From positions 1-57,065 of the forward strand of contig JACQXX010000057.1 in assembly GCA_016208495.1 (NCBI GenBank): a DNA stretch of 57,065 nt. The letters are read 5' to 3'. Below, piece after piece: positions 13,200 to 40,560 of this stretch. The DNA comes from Acidobacteriota bacterium (lineage in GTDB: Bacteria > Acidobacteriota > Blastocatellia > Chloracidobacteriales > Chloracidobacteriaceae). The notes beneath the pieces were generated by a model, which saw only the letters and a list, made by a program, of their open reading frames with translations, had not been told where the DNA came from and searched no databases. Position 1 is the stretch's first letter, and the number at the start of each line of letters is the position of its first letter. A program made the position numbers and the translations under genes.

Positions 13200-13568
13200 T
13201 TGCCAATCGAATGAAGAACCTTTTTAGTGGTTAGTGGTTAGTGGTTAGAAATCAATACTTTCGAAGAAGGACCAAGGCTCAACCACCAAATACCAGGGAC
13301 CAAGGGACCCAGAAGAAAATAAAATCCCACTGAAATCGGGTTCAGGGTTCAGGGTTCAGGGTTTCAGCGATGAGTTGACTGATCCCACTCAAGATGAAGA
13401 CTGGGGAACTGGCGGGTACCACTCAACGTGGAGTATCTGGCCCTGAACCCTGAACCCTGGTGGTATGATATTTCCATCCGACTCCCTTAACTGGCATCAC
13501 TAACCACTTTCTTCATTCTCAATTTTTCATTCTCGTTTTATTTGACAAGGACTTCCACCTGATTCGAA
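13200..13568. other. Repeat-filled gap downstream of the M48 protease gene
   Basis: No gene is seen. A short direct repeat (GTGGTTA units, about 13228-13247) is followed by a near-repeat of ACCAAGGGACC-like units (13270-13312), and then by the inverted pair of heptamer arrays at 13338-13460. The final 100 bases show nothing I can name. Confidence 0.7.
13338..13460. repeat. Inverted pair of heptamer arrays around a 73-nt spacer
   Basis: Positions 13338-13366 hold three copies of GGGTTCA and a fourth 8-nt variant. Positions 13441-13460 hold CCCTGAA twice and a partial third copy, the reverse complement of the first array. The 73-nt spacer is non-coding and has a small hairpin (CCAC/GTGG around 13412-13424). 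A transcript could fold into a stem of about 20 bp closing the spacer. The same layout carries a gene at 30457-31057. Confidence 0.9.
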
Positions 13569-13945: not shown

Positions 13946-14548
13946 ATGAAACTTTCGACCTACGCAAAACACATGGGAGTGTGCTATCTGACGGCGTACA
14001 ACTGGTTCAAAGCTGGACGGATTCAAGGGTATCAAATGGAGACTGGCACAATCATTGTGACCGAACCAGTCAGCCGTCCGATAGTCAAGACACAAACCCG
14101 AAAGGTGGCGATCTACGCACGGGTTTCGGCGGCGGAAAACAAAGAGAATCTGGAAGCACAGGCACAACGAGTGATGGATTACTGCACGGCCCGAGGATAT
14201 CAAATTGGGCAAGTGGTCAAAGAAGTGGGGTCAGGGGTCAACGATACGCGACCCAAATTGCTGAAACTGCTGACGGATACGACGGTGAAGTGTATTGTGT
14301 GCGAACACAAAGACCGGCTGGCACGGAGTGGGTTTCATTTTGTGGAAGAGTTGCTCAAAATCCAAGGGCGAGAAGTGGAGGTAATCAATCTGGCGGAAAA
14401 CGAGAACGAAGATTTGATGGATGATTTCGTGAGCAGTGTGACTTCATTTTGTGCCCGGCTGTATGGACAGAGGCGATCAAAACGGAAGACGGAGCGGATT
14501 ATCGCGGAACTCAAACGGGAAGAAACCGATGAACCGGGCGATCAATAA
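13946..14548 (+). CDS. tnpA: IS607-family serine recombinase (TnpA)
   Basis: The product is 200 residues. The N-terminus is a MerR-like helix-turn-helix (STYAKHMGVCYLTAYNWFKAGRI), followed by a serine-resolvase catalytic domain with the nucleophile in YARVSAAENKENLEAQ, the conserved GSGVNDTRPKL region and EHKDRLARSGF. The C-terminus YGQRRSKRKTERII is typical of IS607 TnpA. It catalyses excision and integration of the element through a serine-DNA intermediate. Length and motifs are complete, so it may be active. Its end overlaps tnpB by 20 nt. Confidence 0.95.
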   Translation: MKLSTYAKHMGVCYLTAYNWFKAGRIQGYQMETGTIIVTEPVSRPIVKTQTRKVAIYARVSAAENKENLEAQAQRVMDYCTARGYQIGQVVKEVGSGVNDTRPKLLKLLTDTTVKCIVCEHKDRLARSGFHFVEELLKIQGREVEVINLAENENEDLMDDFVSSVTSFCARLYGQRRSKRKTERIIAELKREETDEPGDQ

Positions 14549-15809
14549 CCTCAAATTGGAAGCGGCGAATGTCGGGAAGCTGAAGCGGCTCGATGAAGTG
14601 GCCTCGGTGTATATCCTGGCGGTCCAGCGGCTGGTCAACATTTTGATTGCGACGGGGCAGCGAGTGCCAAATAAATATGGGGAAATCCCAGGTGATGAGG
14701 CGAACCTGATCGGGCCACCATCACCGGAAAATCAGCTCTCGGAGCGATGGCGGCGATGTGCGTGGCAACAAGCCTGTGGCATCGTCAAATCGTGGTATGC
14801 CAATGAGCGAACCAATCCACCCTGCCTCAATGTCGAGGACATCTGCATCCAGGCGAATGCGAATGTGGTGAAACTGGAAATGCAAGGCGCGCCGCAACGA
14901 GCCCGGTTGGAACAGATCAAACGCTTGAAAACCAAAGGGGAAGCGGAAGGCAAAGTGGTGCGGATTCCAAAGACGCTCCCGGATCCGAAGGGTGGGCGGC
15001 AGTTTGAATACTGGCTCAAAGTGGCGACGTTGCGCGCCGGGGAACCGATCTATCTCCCGGTGCAACTGTATCCGCGAGCCGCGAAACTTCTCAAAAGCGC
15101 ATCGCGAACCGCAAGCAGTGTCTTGCTGACCCGCCGCCGGGGTGAGTGGCAGCTCCAAATCGTGGTTGAGCATCAGGCCCCCGAACCGGTTACTGCCTCG
15201 GCCCCAGCCGTGGTTGGGATTGATGTCGGAATCGTCAATTTCGCCACTGTGTCACCGACTCATGACGTAGACTCTGGAGAATCGCTGCCTGAAACCGACC
15301 AGCGTCCGTTTCACCAGTCCTTTGGCGGCATCCCCGACCAACTCTCCAACCGGGTCGAACGAGACGCCGAACGGATGAGCCGGAAACAAAAACTCAATGT
15401 CTGTTTGGAAAAGAAGGGCCGGACACCGGTATCCCTCACCAATCCCGCCACCACGGCCTGGATTCGCAACCTGATCGGATATGCCCTCAATCAACTCCTG
15501 TTTTGGCTGCCCTCGCCGGATTCGGTGGTCATCGTGGTTGAAACCCAGGCTGAGTTTCACTGTCAACATTGTCACTTTCAAATCAACGCGGACTGCAATG
15601 CGAGCGACGTGATCGCCAAACGTTTTGGGGATCACCAGCTCAATCAGCTTTCAGTCCCGCGCACGGGAGACCTGCTGCTGGAGCGTTTTTGGAATACCAT
15701 CAGCTTCTCCTACGGCCCATCACCCACCGTTCCCCGTAGTGGAATGGCTGGCGAGAAGTCGTTCATCAGTCGTGACAGACCGCTCCGCCAGGTGAAACCG
15801 ATTTTATAA
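14529..15809 (+). CDS. tnpB: TnpB-type RNA-guided nuclease relative with an internal deletion
   Basis: This 426-residue protein follows tnpA with a 20-nt overlap, starting at ATG 14529. RuvC-I is clear (VVGIDVGIVNFATVS). A helix (NPATTAWIRNLIGYALNQLL) leads to the RuvC-II strand VVIVVE. In intact TnpB proteins this Glu is followed by some 60-80 residues holding the SQ-C-x-x-C-G half of the zinc ribbon. Here it jumps directly to the second half, FHCQHCHFQINADCNASDVI, which contains the RuvC-III Asp. The first CxxC is therefore missing and the zinc site cannot form as usual. The frame is intact, so the gene may be recently shortened, or the product may be a binding-only form. The guide-RNA region would be expected around the 3' end. 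Confidence 0.85.
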   Translation: MNRAINNLKLEAANVGKLKRLDEVASVYILAVQRLVNILIATGQRVPNKYGEIPGDEANLIGPPSPENQLSERWRRCAWQQACGIVKSWYANERTNPPCLNVEDICIQANANVVKLEMQGAPQRARLEQIKRLKTKGEAEGKVVRIPKTLPDPKGGRQFEYWLKVATLRAGEPIYLPVQLYPRAAKLLKSASRTASSVLLTRRRGEWQLQIVVEHQAPEPVTASAPAVVGIDVGIVNFATVSPTHDVDSGESLPETDQRPFHQSFGGIPDQLSNRVERDAERMSRKQKLNVCLEKKGRTPVSLTNPATTAWIRNLIGYALNQLLFWLPSPDSVVIVVETQAEFHCQHCHFQINADCNASDVIAKRFGDHQLNQLSVPRTGDLLLERFWNTISFSYGPSPTVPRSGMAGEKSFISRDRPLRQVKPIL

Positions 15810-28184: not shown

Positions 28185-30455
28185 ATGTCATCAGGTGTGA
28201 CCCGTCATAATGCTTCTTCACCAAACGCGGTGAGCCGTTTTGCCTCTCTGGCACCAACCAAAAAGACTCCTTCTTCCACCTGGAAAGGCTGGAAAACTCG
28301 GGTGCTGGTTGGGGTTGTTCTGGGATTAACCTTGATGACCGGGCCTAAGGGGTCAGAAGGGGATACAACGTTTGATCCACCCGTTTTGAGAGCCCCCAAT
28401 GCCGCACCTGTCATTACTCAAACTGGACTGACGGTTATGGCGGGAAAAACAACCACCGGCAATATTGGTGGTGCTTCGGATGATTGTGGCATTTCTGAAT
28501 TTGGATTCAGCCCTGATCCTGCGGCGGGGATTACGGTCAGTGGGGTGAACGATTCATTTTCCGGAAATCTGGGAAGTGTGACAGCGACGATTTCCGCCGT
28601 ATGTGGTTTGTCTCCAGGGGTATACCCGGTTGGGCAGATTTCAGTGATTGATGATGCTAAAACCCCACCGATGTGTCTGAGCCCAGGTGGGCCGCAACTC
28701 AGTGCCAATGCTGTGATTTCGGTGCGGGTTATCGCCAATCCAGTTCCTACTTTAGGCACTTACACCGACGTTACAACCGGCGCCAGCTCAACCGTCACTG
28801 TTACCCCGACAACACCCCCGGCTGATGCCAGCAATGACATCCGTGAAGTGATCGTGAGTCCTCAAGATTTACCCGGTGGCGGAACTGCCGTTGTGAACCC
28901 TGCAACCGGAGTGGTGACGATAACAACCGATGTCGGAACCACCGCTGGAGAATATCAAATTTCGGTCATGGTAACCGATGCCTGTAACTCGAAAACAACT
29001 CAGTCCTTTAAATTAACAGTGACCCAAACCCTGGTAAACACAGCACCATTATTGACTGCCACGGGCAGTGTGACTGTTTCCCAGGGAGGCGCTGAAGTTT
29101 CCGCCGATGTGGCCACCACCACCGATGAGCAGGAAGAGGCTGGGGCACTCCAGGTTTCACTTTCGGATATTCCAGCGGGGATTTCAGTGCGAGTTGTCAA
29201 TTCTGGCGGAACCATTCAGGCGTTTGCCCAGGCTGCCTGCTCAGTCGCACCAAACATTTATCCAATTTCATTGACAGTCAGTGACACTGGGATTCCAGTC
29301 GCACCGCCATTGACGACCTCAACAACTTTTAATGTAACAGTTACCGGAAATTCAACTCCGACTATCGGCAGTTATTCCAATGTGACCCTGGTCCAGGGAG
29401 GTTCAGCAACTCAATCTCCGAGCGCTCCGCCATCTGATCGAAATAACAATATTTCACGAGTCACTGTGACCCCAACTTCATTGCCGGGTGGTGGCAGCGT
29501 TTCGGTTGACCCGGCCAGCGGCGCCGTCCGGATTACGACTGTTTCGGCGACACAACCTGGTACCTACCCGGTTCGCGTGGTCGTGGCAGATCCATGTAAC
29601 GAAACAAGCGCGGGCTTCCAGCTCCTTGTGAATAAACCCCAAACCCGACCCGCAGCTCCGACCGGGTTGGCGGCAGGTGCGGCGACTTCAGTCCAGATTG
29701 ATCTTTCCTGGAGTGACAACAGTGACAATGAAGCTGGTTTTGTCATTGAGCGTCGGACTGCCACTGGTCAGTTTGCTATACTGGCCACCACCAACGCTGA
29801 TGTTGTTCGGTTTAGCAACAGTGGTCTGACCCCAGGGGTTGAATATGGGTATCGAGTCAAAGCCACCAATGGGGTTGGCGACTCAGACTATACCAACGTG
29901 GCAAGTGCCATACCCCCAATCCCAACCAACCTTGGGGTCTCCCAGTTTTTCCCACTGGCCGCTGCGCCCGGAGGGAAAATTATCATTCATGGATTTGGGT
30001 TTATTCCTGGTGCTACGGAAGTCTATTTCGGAGGCGATGCGCAAATTCGGTCTCCTCTGGTAGCTGTCTTTTCACCAACTCAAGCCGAAGTGACGGTCCC
30101 GGATTCAGGAGGAGGCTCAGGCAATGTCAATGGGTTTATTACCGTCCGAGTTCCTGGCCAACCTGATGCCAACACCCGAGGGTTTTTACAAAATTCGAGT
30201 GATCCCAACAATCCAGCCTCAACTTTCCCTGAATTTGTGGTGTTAGGCGATATCACTGGGGATGGGATTGTTGATCAACGCGACGTGAATGAATTGCAAG
30301 CCGCTGTTTTGGGGCAGAAACAATTAGACGCTCGTCAAGCACTTGCTGGGGATGTCTTCCCTTTAAATCTGAATGGTAGTCGTGGGGATGGAAAATTCTC
30401 TGGGATTGATTTCACTGTTCTTCGGGCGGTCGTTTTGGGTCAGGTTGCCTTCTGA
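28185..30455 (+). CDS. Secreted repeat protein with FN3, IPT and C-terminal dockerin
   Basis: The protein has about 756 residues. After a basic N-terminus it has one hydrophobic stretch (RVLVGVVLGLTLMTG). Residues about 60-500 consist of alternating beta domains. Two long units repeat closely, with VPTLGTYTDVTTG and TPTIGSYSNVTLV marking their starts and LPGGGTAVVNPATGVVTITT and LPGGGSVSVDPASGAVRITT their ends. An FN3 domain (about 500-590) and an IPT domain (about 598-680) follow. The last 65 residues form a type I dockerin: GDITGDGIVDQRDVNELQAAVLGQ, then a second loop NLNGSRGDGKFSGIDFTVLRAVVLGQ with an insert. ATG 28185 follows GAGGA at 28175-28179. It probably forms a complex at the cell surface with the preceding protein. 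Confidence 0.85.
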   Translation: MSSGVTRHNASSPNAVSRFASLAPTKKTPSSTWKGWKTRVLVGVVLGLTLMTGPKGSEGDTTFDPPVLRAPNAAPVITQTGLTVMAGKTTTGNIGGASDDCGISEFGFSPDPAAGITVSGVNDSFSGNLGSVTATISAVCGLSPGVYPVGQISVIDDAKTPPMCLSPGGPQLSANAVISVRVIANPVPTLGTYTDVTTGASSTVTVTPTTPPADASNDIREVIVSPQDLPGGGTAVVNPATGVVTITTDVGTTAGEYQISVMVTDACNSKTTQSFKLTVTQTLVNTAPLLTATGSVTVSQGGAEVSADVATTTDEQEEAGALQVSLSDIPAGISVRVVNSGGTIQAFAQAACSVAPNIYPISLTVSDTGIPVAPPLTTSTTFNVTVTGNSTPTIGSYSNVTLVQGGSATQSPSAPPSDRNNNISRVTVTPTSLPGGGSVSVDPASGAVRITTVSATQPGTYPVRVVVADPCNETSAGFQLLVNKPQTRPAAPTGLAAGAATSVQIDLSWSDNSDNEAGFVIERRTATGQFAILATTNADVVRFSNSGLTPGVEYGYRVKATNGVGDSDYTNVASAIPPIPTNLGVSQFFPLAAAPGGKIIIHGFGFIPGATEVYFGGDAQIRSPLVAVFSPTQAEVTVPDSGGGSGNVNGFITVRVPGQPDANTRGFLQNSSDPNNPASTFPEFVVLGDITGDGIVDQRDVNELQAAVLGQKQLDARQALAGDVFPLNLNGSRGDGKFSGIDFTVLRAVVLGQVAF

Positions 30456-30456
30456 G

Positions 30457-30551
30457 ATGACAAGGTGACAAGTGACAGGATGACAGGGTGACAGGGTGAC
30501 AAGGTGACAGGATGACAGGGTGACAGGGTGACAGGGTGACAAGGTGATAAG
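30457..30551. repeat. Left array of an inverted pair: twelve units of an 8-nt repeat
   Basis: From 30457, two bases after the dockerin stop, twelve units of RTGACARG run to 30551 (for example GTGACAGG, ATGACAGG, GTGACAAG), one of them shortened to 7 nt. The matching reverse-complement array is at 30985-31057, and the four-helix-bundle gene lies between them. Confidence 0.95.
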
Positions 30552-30569
30552 AGGAAGCCCTGGCTTGTT

Positions 30570-30974
30570 TCACTTTTTCTGCTGAGTGTTGGTTAAAATC
30601 CACGTTTCTGAATGGGTTGCCATGCCAACAAGGGTTCGAATGATCCTTGAATAGGTTTCAAATAACTCAAGTACAACTTCCCGGTTTATGTATTCGCATC
30701 GGGATGAAAATTCAATCCAAACCTGAGTTTCAGCCGACTCGCTTTCACACTCACAAAGCTTACTGATGAATGCTGCCTGATATCTCCTTTTTCTCCAGGC
30801 TTCAGCCAGGTTGGCACAAACAGATCGTGAGGACCTCCGAATTTGATCCACAAGGGAGTAAGTTTCTTCCTTCGGAAACAATTTGGTAAGTTCAAAGATT
30901 TTCATAGCTGCATCAAGAGAGAGTTGATACACCTCAAGATCGTTATGAGTCTGGATTCTTTTCTTTTGGCTCAT
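30570..30974 (-). CDS. Four-helix-bundle protein (S23 / 23S rRNA intervening-sequence type)
   Basis: The 134-residue protein opens with the family pattern NDLEVYQLSLDAAMKIFELTK and continues LVDQIRRSSRSVCANLAEAWRKR and ISKLCECESESAETQVWIEFSSRCEYI. These are the marks of S23-type four-helix bundles, known from ORFs inside 23S rRNA intervening sequences and related to the Avd protein of diversity-generating retroelements. They form pentameric barrels that bind nucleic acid. It is free-standing here. No rRNA or reverse transcriptase is near. Inverted 8-nt-repeat arrays lie on both sides, and GGTGA from the last unit of the right array sits 9 nt before the ATG, where it can act as the ribosome site. 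The C-terminal tail TNTQQKK is short and basic. Confidence 0.92.
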   Translation of the reverse strand: MSQKKRIQTHNDLEVYQLSLDAAMKIFELTKLFPKEETYSLVDQIRRSSRSVCANLAEAWRKRRYQAAFISKLCECESESAETQVWIEFSSRCEYINREVVLELFETYSRIIRTLVGMATHSETWILTNTQQKK

Positions 30975-30984
30975 AAGTTTTTTT

Positions 30985-31057
30985 CACCCGTCACCTTGTC
31001 ATCCTGTCACCTTGTCACTCTGTCATTTGTCACCTTGTCATTGGTCACCTTGTCACC
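30985..31057. repeat. Right array of the inverted pair (CYTGTCAY units)
   Basis: About nine units of CTTGTCAC or CCTGTCAT type run from 30985 to 31057, some with a base missing. They are the reverse complement of the units at 30457-30551. A transcript of the S23 gene would carry one array before the start and the other after the stop, able to pair. The right edge touches the DUF4384 gene's stop at 31060. Confidence 0.95.
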
Positions 31058-31059
31058 CT

Positions 31060-31818
31060 TCATTCATGTTTGATCAAAAATCGTTCGATCAACTCAGCCC
31101 GCTTATTTGGGTTGGTTGAGGTGATGAAGATGGAAAAAAGTCGTTCAAAATTTCTTCCGTTCGTGCCACCACTGGTTCGACGCACAAAAGGGGCAGTTGT
31201 TTGAACCAGTTCTTCGAGTACTTGCTGCTGGTTGATTCCACTCTGTCGGTCAACCAGGCTAAGCAGGAGTTCACGGCTGTAAACGATGGTAAACACTTCG
31301 TTTCCAACTGGCGGGGTGATGGTATACCAGCATTCATCGGGGTTGGTTCCATCCAGGCACTCACCGGGAAGGATGTATTCCTGACCCTGACGCAAAAAAT
31401 TTCTTCCATTTCCAATCCTGGAGTCAGGGTAAATCAGTTGGGGCTGATTCAACGGGCGGCCATCAGGTGTTTCGCTGTGGTTGAATACATACAGGTACCC
31501 GTCATAGTTGGGCCGGACCCAAATCCGTAACTGGTCGTCAGTAAAAAACGTGGATAATGGATTGACCGCTTCAGCACGTCCAGTCGGTGATTTTTTCAAA
31601 AGCTGCAATTCCAAACCCAGGGGGGCGCTTTTGACTTTTGGACGAGCGCGAACGGGTCGAGGTTGAGGTGCTGATTTTTTGGCATTGGCTTTACTCCACA
31701 CCAGTGTGTCTGAGTTAGACTGTGCCTGACAGGGAGGTGCCCCGGCCAGCAAGACAACGACTCCCCAAACCAAAGTGAATAGAGTGATTTGAATAGAATT
31801 ACCAGCGCGAAATTGCAT
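31060..31818 (-). CDS. Secreted DUF4384-domain protein
   Basis: The 252-residue protein has a signal peptide (hydrophobic ITLFTLVWGVVVLLAG, cleavage near CQAQS). Residues about 70-190 are a DUF4384 domain (FFTDDQLRIWVRPNYDGYLYVFNHSETPDG, LIYPDSRIGNG, YSRELLLSL). DUF4384 domains commonly lie near kinases, caspase-like peptidases or SUMF1 proteins in Acidobacteria and cyanobacteria. Their role is unknown. ATG 31818 is supported by GAGG 5 nt upstream. It is the third gene of the minus-strand operon that starts at 36074, with a 66-nt gap to the kinase gene. Its stop lies two bases from the repeat array. Confidence 0.85.
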   Translation of the reverse strand: MQFRAGNSIQITLFTLVWGVVVLLAGAPPCQAQSNSDTLVWSKANAKKSAPQPRPVRARPKVKSAPLGLELQLLKKSPTGRAEAVNPLSTFFTDDQLRIWVRPNYDGYLYVFNHSETPDGRPLNQPQLIYPDSRIGNGRNFLRQGQEYILPGECLDGTNPDECWYTITPPVGNEVFTIVYSRELLLSLVDRQSGINQQQVLEELVQTTAPFVRRTSGGTNGRNFERLFSIFITSTNPNKRAELIERFLIKHE

Positions 31819-40305: not shown

Positions 40306-40560
40306 CAGAAATAACCGGATGACAAGGGACGGGGTGACAAGGGGACAAGGGTGACAAGGGGACAGGGTGACAGAAATGACAAGGTGACAAGGCTGTCCAA
40401 AATTGATTGTTCCAGAGCCAAATCCATCTGGGAACGAACTGATCATTTCTTTTTCTATCTGCTAACTATTCACAATAAAAAAGATACCAGATAATCACCT
40501 TGTCCCCCTGTCCCCCCTCCCTTGTCCCCCTGTCCCCCTGTCACTTGTCCCCTGTCATCT
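40292..40560. repeat. Inverted pair of GTGACAAGG-type arrays around a 100-nt spacer
   Basis: The left array 40292-40393 has units such as GTGACAAGG, GGACAAGG and GTGACAGAAAT. The right array, about 40495-40560, has CTTGTCCCC, CTGTCCCCC and CTGTCACTT units, its reverse complement. The spacer (40394-40494) is AT-rich and non-coding. The units are relatives of those at 30457 and 30985 but are more degenerate and 8-10 nt long. The first repeats overlap the end of the kinase gene. Confidence 0.9.

Follow-up and report, generated by a model that had tools for sequence, protein, structure and literature searches.

S23 proteins have been known from inserts in ribosomal RNA (rRNA) genes for more than 25 years, with a function and an origin that have been called unclear (PMC4990558). 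In Coxiella, the intervening sequence (IVS) of the 23S gene has an inverted-repeat stem and is excised by RNase III, and tandem GACAGAT heptamers, whose number varies among strains, stand before the ATG of S23 (PMC4990558). Open reading frames (ORFs) of the S23 family PF05635 also occur in insertions of both the 16S and the 23S genes of bacteria of the candidate phyla radiation (PMC11270868). Our subject is an S23 gene enclosed by inverted tandem arrays of an octamer, in a stretch of 57,065 nucleotides from an Acidobacteriota bacterium of the class Blastocatellia (GenBank assembly GCA_016208495.1, contig JACQXX010000057.1, positions 1 to 57,065; hereafter the window). Positions 30456–31059 of the window are probably one copy of a widespread mobile element, in which an S23 gene stands between inverted arrays of 7–9-nucleotide (nt) units and which would be a free-standing counterpart of the rRNA IVS.

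A second described system concerns repeats and a gene together: RAYTs are Y1 transposases that maintain REPINs in trans, and REPs are short palindromes, not tandem 7–9-mers. There, one gene flanked by inverted repeats is accompanied by many gene-less hairpins genome-wide (PMC3116915). Heptamer arrays are known from Beggiatoaceae, Cyanobacteria, Bacteroidetes and Xanthomonas (PMC4679880, PMC4692102). The TAACTGA arrays of Beggiatoaceae mostly end just before start codons, and horizontal transfer is suspected in their spread, with no mechanism evident (PMC4679880); Xanthomonas has 70–75 inverted heptamer pairs per genome, and the Xanthomonas/Nostoc heptamers are GGGAATC and GGGGA(C/T)T (PMC4692102). 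The searched text of these two papers (PMC4679880, PMC4692102) contains no mention of S23 or of a four-helix protein, and no paper linking S23 with these arrays was found among the matches listed in the open-licence literature.

The window S23 ORF belongs to its family by two profiles, PF05635 (97.6 bits, cut-off 33.8) and TIGR02436 (90.2 bits, cut-off 24). Its relatives in the Protein Data Bank are 2rld and 2gsc, and its clade, which carries an RKRRY motif, is also present on cyanobacterial plasmids at ~60% identity. Tandem Repeats Finder reported the left array at 30458–30547 (period 8, 11.4 copies, unit TGACAGGG) and the right array at 30990–31057 (period 8, 8.8 copies, unit GTCACCTT), so that sequence, repeat finder and profile matches all agree with the description, in an earlier note made from the letters of this DNA, of an S23 gene enclosed by inverted octamer arrays. 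That note also had the arrays touching the gene on both sides, which needs correction: the left array lies ~18 nt from the stop codon and the right array ~9 nt from the ATG, and it is the neighbouring ORFs that the arrays adjoin. Since the plus-strand ORF ends at 30455 and the minus-strand ORF at 31060, the element is the entire space between two convergent ORFs. Both of these are long and protein-coding, which places the element outside 16S and 23S genes (as read from the ORFs, not from an Rfam scan). No second gene was found within it among the listed ORFs, nor any transposase of a known type in the ORF list or in Pfam and NCBIfam profile scans. The complementarity between its flanks scored 52, compared with a median of 12 and a maximum of 23 at 1200 positions chosen at random in sampled stretches of this genome. 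The long closing stem that the earlier note had envisaged for the mRNA is also predicted by folding of the unit (minimum free energy −217.6 kcal/mol, z −6.9), with none of 20 shuffles equally good.

The idea that repeat and protein belong together was examined in two sets of loci, 77 taken from the genome and class of the window and 80 found by scanning species genomes (78 without duplicates, from 20 named phyla). The latter, broad set is the best 80 of at least 574 confirmed matches to one S23 subgroup, and L038–L077 are the first 40 listed matches without a locus in the scan of relatives; because best-scoring or first-listed matches were taken, high-scoring S23 genes are over-represented. 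One detector was applied to 220-nt flanks of S23 loci and controls alike. Arrays on both sides were detected in 114 of 151 non-duplicate S23 loci with readable flanks (one side, 26; none, 11), and the units matched when inverted in 107 of the 114. By comparison, both-side arrays occurred at five of 1505 shifted positions in the same loci and at none of 30 PIN-domain genes, which came from the same set of relatives and had most match ends set at a common position. The earlier note had proposed a comparison of S23 flanks with those of random genes, and the S23 flanks proved to be the more repeat-rich. Of the 20 named phyla in the broad set, 17 had two-armed loci, many phyla being represented by a single locus. 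Left-right complementarity had a median of 25 in the window's genome and class versus 12 at random positions of that genome, with 64 of 74 loci above the 99th percentile, and a median of 23 versus 11 in the broad set, where the control consisted of shifted positions in the same loci. The duplicates L123 (= L014) and L137 (= L024) were removed from the 151-locus count and are still included in the broad-set complementarity, shifted-position, period, unit-agreement and consensus counts. These results make the association between S23 genes and arrays nearly certain. Chance and local repeat richness, considered as its cause, were rejected by the random-position, shifted-position and PIN controls.

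Profile matches to PF05635 were present in 40 of 58 genomes of the relatives' set, including the window's own, with up to 17 per genome, and in none of 14 control genomes. The window's genome has eight, and each adjoins short tandem arrays when inspected by eye, the units being GATAGGG, GGGTTCA, AGTAGTC, TGACAGGG, GGGTTCG (twice), AGTGGTT and a nonamer; L005 and L006 reach the end of their contigs, the match is interrupted by a stop in L002, L005 and L007, and L007 and L008 score below the Pfam cut-off. Contigs C37, C130 and C147 of genome G000 end within a few hundred bases of S23 matches, so that assemblies may break at such elements and lead to their undercounting.

Two features that the earlier note did not contain are the specificity of the unit to each locus and the correspondence between S23 clade and repeat period. 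The period was 7 in 117 of 131 left and 122 of 132 right arrays (~90% heptamers). In 84% of 117 loci the two arms agreed over 85% or more of the unit, compared with 3.5% between loci, and the mean unit match was 0.89 within and 0.55 between loci. Read inward, the units have the consensus AGTRGYY with a nearly invariant AG (4.22 bits in 134 loci, versus a maximum of 2.87 in 40 shuffled sets). In 44 pairs of loci, the flanking genes are homologous on either side. At one shared site, where the S23 proteins are 80% identical, one genome has AGTAGTC arms and the other AGAAGAC arms, left and right agreeing in each, and thus both arms have changed together; a third genome has at this site a more distant S23 (38–42% identity) with AGTTCGC. 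Stop codons are slightly in excess in the units (outward, 55 of 132 versus 25% in shuffled units; inward, 54 of 132 versus 38%), a result of which we made no use, and the charge of the S23 proteins was uninformative (median isoelectric point 7.7).

A tree of 155 S23 proteins was built quickly from few columns and has many weak forks; same-site orthologs were reduced, up to ten same-site loci being dropped before the test. On this tree, the 8–9-nt units require four changes, compared with a mean of 10.7 and a minimum of 8 in 300 shuffles. The window's clade has mostly 8–9-nt units in Blastocatellia and cyanobacteria, with octamers in the Blastocatellia loci L004 and L035 and also among the cyanobacteria. 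On cyanobacterial plasmids, for which 14 places were fetched from 29 records matching the window S23 and ten from 33 records for another S23, the units were of 8–9 nt in 11 of 13 window-clade loci and of 7 nt in seven of eight other-clade loci (Fisher p 0.002). This count leaves out L273 (same S23 as L272), L275 (not from a cyanobacterium) and L278 (array too weak); L266 and L269 have upstream sequence in common. As the period differs by S23 clade on these plasmids, host phylum alone does not set it. Unit similarity also rises weakly with protein identity (r 0.21; reached by 0 of 999 permutations, same-site pairs excluded).

The same data bear on a reading in which the repeats are passive, the arrays arising by slippage and the inverted pairs by quasi-palindrome template switching, with S23 merely sitting where arrays are common. 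The abundance of arrays in the window's genome, the quick turnover of units at fixed sites and the direct arms of two plasmid loci all fit this reading. It conflicts with the shifted-position and PIN controls, with the occurrence of two-armed loci across phyla, with a period that follows the protein clade within one host phylum, and with array families that track their cognate S23 (see below). These observations already largely refute it, and we consider it very unlikely.

Evidence for movement comes from comparison of sites. L047 and L050, both in genome G033, are 95% identical from within one array to within the other, where the identity stops (700 nt compared on each side). They are thus the same unit at unrelated sites, with homology ending at the edges, as is characteristic of a mobile element. 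No other such pair of at least 78% identity emerged from the 157 loci compared, and the window copy is not part of one. In the lspA–lgt interval, read by eye in thirteen genomes, an S23 element is present in three (two of them with an extra acetyltransferase-like gene), an S23-less inverted hairpin in G055, one-sided arrays in G015 and G023 and an array at a contig end in G038; six genomes have none of these states, G045 among them having an unrelated hairpin. The L047 site, also read by eye, holds the element in G033, an S23-less hairpin in G021 and G029 and nothing in G025 and G014, and G040 and G044 have another downstream gene. The genes at the compared sites were likewise named by eye (lspA, lgt, acetyltransferase, thioesterase, aminotransferase). 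The suggestion of the earlier note that the unit is perhaps mobile thus gains support from a two-copy pair with unrelated flanks and from filled, hairpin-only and empty states of single sites, and such comparisons make mobility of the element likely.

The movement might be due to another enzyme acting in trans, for instance a Y1 (IS200/RAYT-type) HUH transposase that recognizes the hairpin ends, with S23 as an accessory or a passenger. Y1 transposases were found in 37 of 39 S23-positive and nine of 17 S23-negative genomes (Fisher p 0.0005), an association in which kinship, genome size and completeness are confounders. G030 and G032 have S23 and no Y1 match, the window element contains no second gene, and the link between period and clade points to S23 itself. 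We therefore regard action of such an enzyme as improbable.

Arrays without S23 are frequent in the window's genome: a 435-kb sample, largely from S23-bearing contigs, contained 115 arrays and 18 inverted pairs within 700 nt, and no S23 remnants were found in the loops of these 18 pairs. Gene-less copies of S23-locus repeats are thus spread in the genome, as REPINs are. Among 105 S23-less arrays of 7–9 nt in this genome, 71% matched a unit of its own S23 loci with at most one mismatch. When eight foreign S23 loci were drawn at random instead (300 sets), the proportion averaged 28% and reached 70% at most; the own set owes part of its gain to its rarer 8- and 9-nt periods. In genus g4, the pattern GCGAGTG gave 114 overlapping matches in G004 and 118 in G005, which are closely related and have S23 with matching arms, and none in G003 or G006–G009; the reversed pattern gave none. 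In 400 kb of G051, which has two S23 genes, three inverted pairs were detected. One encloses S23, and a second has a 9-nt unit that agrees at eight of nine positions with that of the L046 element elsewhere in G051; no inverted pair was detected at the other S23 gene. The features of the window are collected in Table 1.

Table 1. Coordinates of the element, its neighbours and S23-less arrays in the window
Feature	Position	Strand	Remarks
Left arm, tandem array of TGACAGGG/TGACAAGG octamers	30456..30551	+	G-rich when read inward; begins right after the stop codon of the plus-strand neighbour
S23 gene, four-helix bundle, 134 amino acids, PF05635 and TIGR02436	30570..30974	-	RKRRY-motif clade
Right arm, reverse-complement array of GTCACCTT octamers	30984..31059	+	adjoins the end of the minus-strand neighbour
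Whole element in the S23-sense transcript, including the stop codons of both neighbours	30453..31062	-	long closing stem predicted
Neighbouring ORF, 760 amino acids	28173..30455	+	stop codon adjoins left array
Neighbouring ORF, 254 amino acids	31060..31824	-	stop codon adjoins right array
S23-less inverted pair of the octamer family of the window element (TGACAAGGG / CCCTTGTCCCC), around ~105 nt	40320..40556	.	Tandem Repeats Finder
Dispersed mini-element of ~188 nt with inner inverted GGGTTCA / CCCTGAA arrays	13303..13490	+	unit equals that of S23 locus L002

The ~188-nt mini-element has 40 long copies in the window's genome, with 87–100% identity, and as the hairpin at 13338 lies within this larger dispersed element, it is not by itself proof of array mobility. 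Other S23-less arrays were seen in passing. In L082 (8213–8542) and L094 (9428–9823), inverted AGTGGTT-type arrays enclose a 260–280-nt loop with an inner palindrome, and the two loops, on two contigs, are 86% identical. Eight AGGGATG-type arrays (in L078, L083, L088, L090, L092, L094 and L097, all of the window's genome) are of nearly equal length, 27–29 nt or about four units, unlike the other families, and are perhaps another class of repeat without S23. The window ORFs at 14451–15809 and 13946–14548 resemble, by eye, an IS607-type pair (serine recombinase-like and TnpB-like).

In 12 loci, a longer reading frame passes through the whole element without a stop, and strand and relative frame are the same in every case. 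Of eight such hosts scanned, seven belong to DNA methylase families and one to DUF1156. Seven pglX-like loci had no host-frame stop across the S23 match, compared with a mean of 4.6 stops in 137 other loci, of which 12 also had none, five of these 12 being in-frame loci themselves. One PglX and one Mod protein encoded on plasmids are uninterrupted and do not have the insert (five loci aligned), and the same methylase genes also carry short in-frame array hairpins without S23. The in-frame methylase loci are not independent (L025/L027/L029 are at one site, and a site is likewise common to L103/L119/L141/L170, to L116/L153 and perhaps to L127/L131), and the in-frame loci may come from about six independent insertions. 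In-frame elements were seen in pglX genes of BREX (bacteriophage exclusion) systems or in Eco57I-like methylase genes in several phyla (L103, L119, L141, L170, also L098, L116 and L153), with S23 in an overlapping frame and four at the same stretch of PglX.

If the arrays mattered only as a transcript stem that is bound by S23 or cut by RNase III, the unit would act at the RNA level, in self-regulation or in silencing within operons, with no mobility driven by S23. Such a role does not account for copies at unrelated sites, for the filled, hairpin and empty states of single sites or for the spread of S23-less hairpins through genomes, and the open host frames of the 12 loci would be needless if the RNA were always cut out; obligatory RNA excision is rejected for this reason. 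The long stem predicted for the window element agrees with a role at the RNA level, as do the RNase III excision of the rRNA IVS (PMC4990558) and the many Blastocatellia copies, among those listed, that sit tightly between genes with arrays reaching stop or start codons (by eye). On balance, we find this explanation unlikely.

Sequence comparison thus establishes the array–S23–array unit, its matched and locus-specific arms, the link between period and clade, its presence at unrelated sites, and sites that are empty or have a hairpin in its place. It also shows S23 to be under purifying selection: the ratio of nonsynonymous to synonymous change (dN/dS) was 0.02–0.26 in the 14 of 28 pairs that gave an estimate, synonymous divergence (dS) being saturated in 13 others and one pair not being computable. 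Several of these values rest on dS above 1.5, and overlap with methylase frames constrains the ratio twice. S23 proteins form rings and are related to the Avd protein of diversity-generating retroelements (DGRs), and to our knowledge no catalytic site is known in the S23 four-helix bundle. We infer that S23 acts directly on the arrays: it would bind the repeats in register, as a DNA hairpin or an RNA stem, and would help the replication and repair machinery of the host to copy the arms and the element to new places by template switching, and the match between the arms would be maintained by the same process. Insertion would be made tolerable by the RNA stem, as in the rRNA IVS, where RNase III removes the stem. 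S23-less hairpins would be reduced copies maintained by S23 in trans, by analogy with REPINs and RAYT. A broader proposal, which we hold only tentatively and rate at somewhat less than an even chance, is that S23 is the agent of a new class of mobile element whose ends are a tandem array of a protein-set period, not a fixed sequence. Its clade would measure the 7-, 8- or 9-nt unit, copy the matched inverted arms and seed hairpins genome-wide; the scattered heptamer repeats would be its debris, and the rRNA IVSs would be members that landed in rRNA genes.

Several observations weigh against the mobile element and the role given to S23. No detectable array was present on one or both sides of 37 of the 151 loci, the units of seven of the 114 two-armed loci did not match when inverted, and only 28 of 77 broad-set stems exceeded the 99th percentile when the stricter control of shifted positions was applied. 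The plasmid loci L265 and L286 have direct, not inverted, arrays, which the hairpin model does not explain, and L269, also on a cyanobacterial plasmid, shows no complementary arms. The GCGAGTG test gave 12 matches in the window's genome and 2 in G028. An empty site of the window element was not traceable: the best match of one neighbour in nine relatives is 36% identical, and near it neither S23 nor an array was found, in a search that covered that one of the two neighbours. The filled and empty sites read by eye show no target-site duplication or defined end, and arrays that reach neighbouring genes would hide a duplication. The L047/L050 event is not recent, given a dS of 0.19, and G033 is a draft assembly; no movement was watched directly. 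Neither Pfam nor NCBIfam gave the window S23 a match to a nuclease, polymerase or recombinase family, and replication errors alone can keep arms alike without S23.

Short tandem heptamers are abundant in many bacterial genomes without an accepted origin, and the link to S23 may explain their source. It provides both the arrays and the protein with a testable partner, makes S23 a protein whose clade predicts the repeat length, and suggests a common origin of rRNA IVSs and intergenic arrays. Proof that S23 is the copying agent would make the class categorically new. Heptamer number could switch methylase genes that carry the element on and off. S23 genes with arrays were also seen amid genes of CRISPR (clustered regularly interspaced short palindromic repeats) systems, in L284 (Anabaena sp. 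90), L286 (Pseudanabaena) and L288 (Picosynechococcus), between cas6 and cas4 (two plasmids) or between cas10 and a Cmr3-family gene. The S23 family is named in a figure legend of a survey of CRISPR-linked proteins (PMC10910872), and S23 elements in cas loci may explain that listing. Some 'four helix bundle' genes in CRISPR, BREX and restriction operons may accordingly be inserted elements and not parts of the defence.

Among the known systems, the DGRs resemble the present one through their protein. S23 shares remote homology and a similar structure with Avd (PMC10053308), and the window S23 has a weak match to the bAvd profile PF22296 (28.5 bits), as might be expected if S23 acted like Avd together with a reverse transcriptase. 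Unlike Avd, it stays below the curated cut-offs (bAvd, 28.5 versus 40; Avd, 19.5 versus 80), and no reverse transcriptase ORF stands beside it among the listed ORFs, by eye. The window's own genome does have matches to the reverse transcriptase family PF00078. No such match was present in 19 of 39 S23-positive genomes, some of them incomplete, including G042 with its 17 S23 matches, and a PF00078 reverse transcriptase thus seems not to be needed. Dependence on a reverse transcriptase was rejected on these two grounds; kinship with DGRs in this sense is largely refuted unless another reverse transcriptase family serves, and we consider it extremely improbable.

Like the REPIN/RAYT system, the element has a gene between inverted repeats and gene-less hairpins of the same repeat; unlike it, the gene between the window arms matches the S23 families, not a Y1 (HUH) transposase. 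With the heptamer repeats of cyanobacteria, Beggiatoaceae and Xanthomonas/Nostoc it shares intergenic 7-nt arrays beside start and stop codons, whereas the Xanthomonas/Nostoc unit GGGAATC is without the AG core of the S23-locus units. The rRNA IVS is the nearest known kind. As there, the window S23 ORF is enclosed by an inverted-repeat stem, in our case a predicted one. The elements described here differ from the rRNA IVS in lying outside rRNA, between or within protein genes; their arms are long tandem arrays with units specific to each locus, a genome has several copies, and derivatives without S23 occur.
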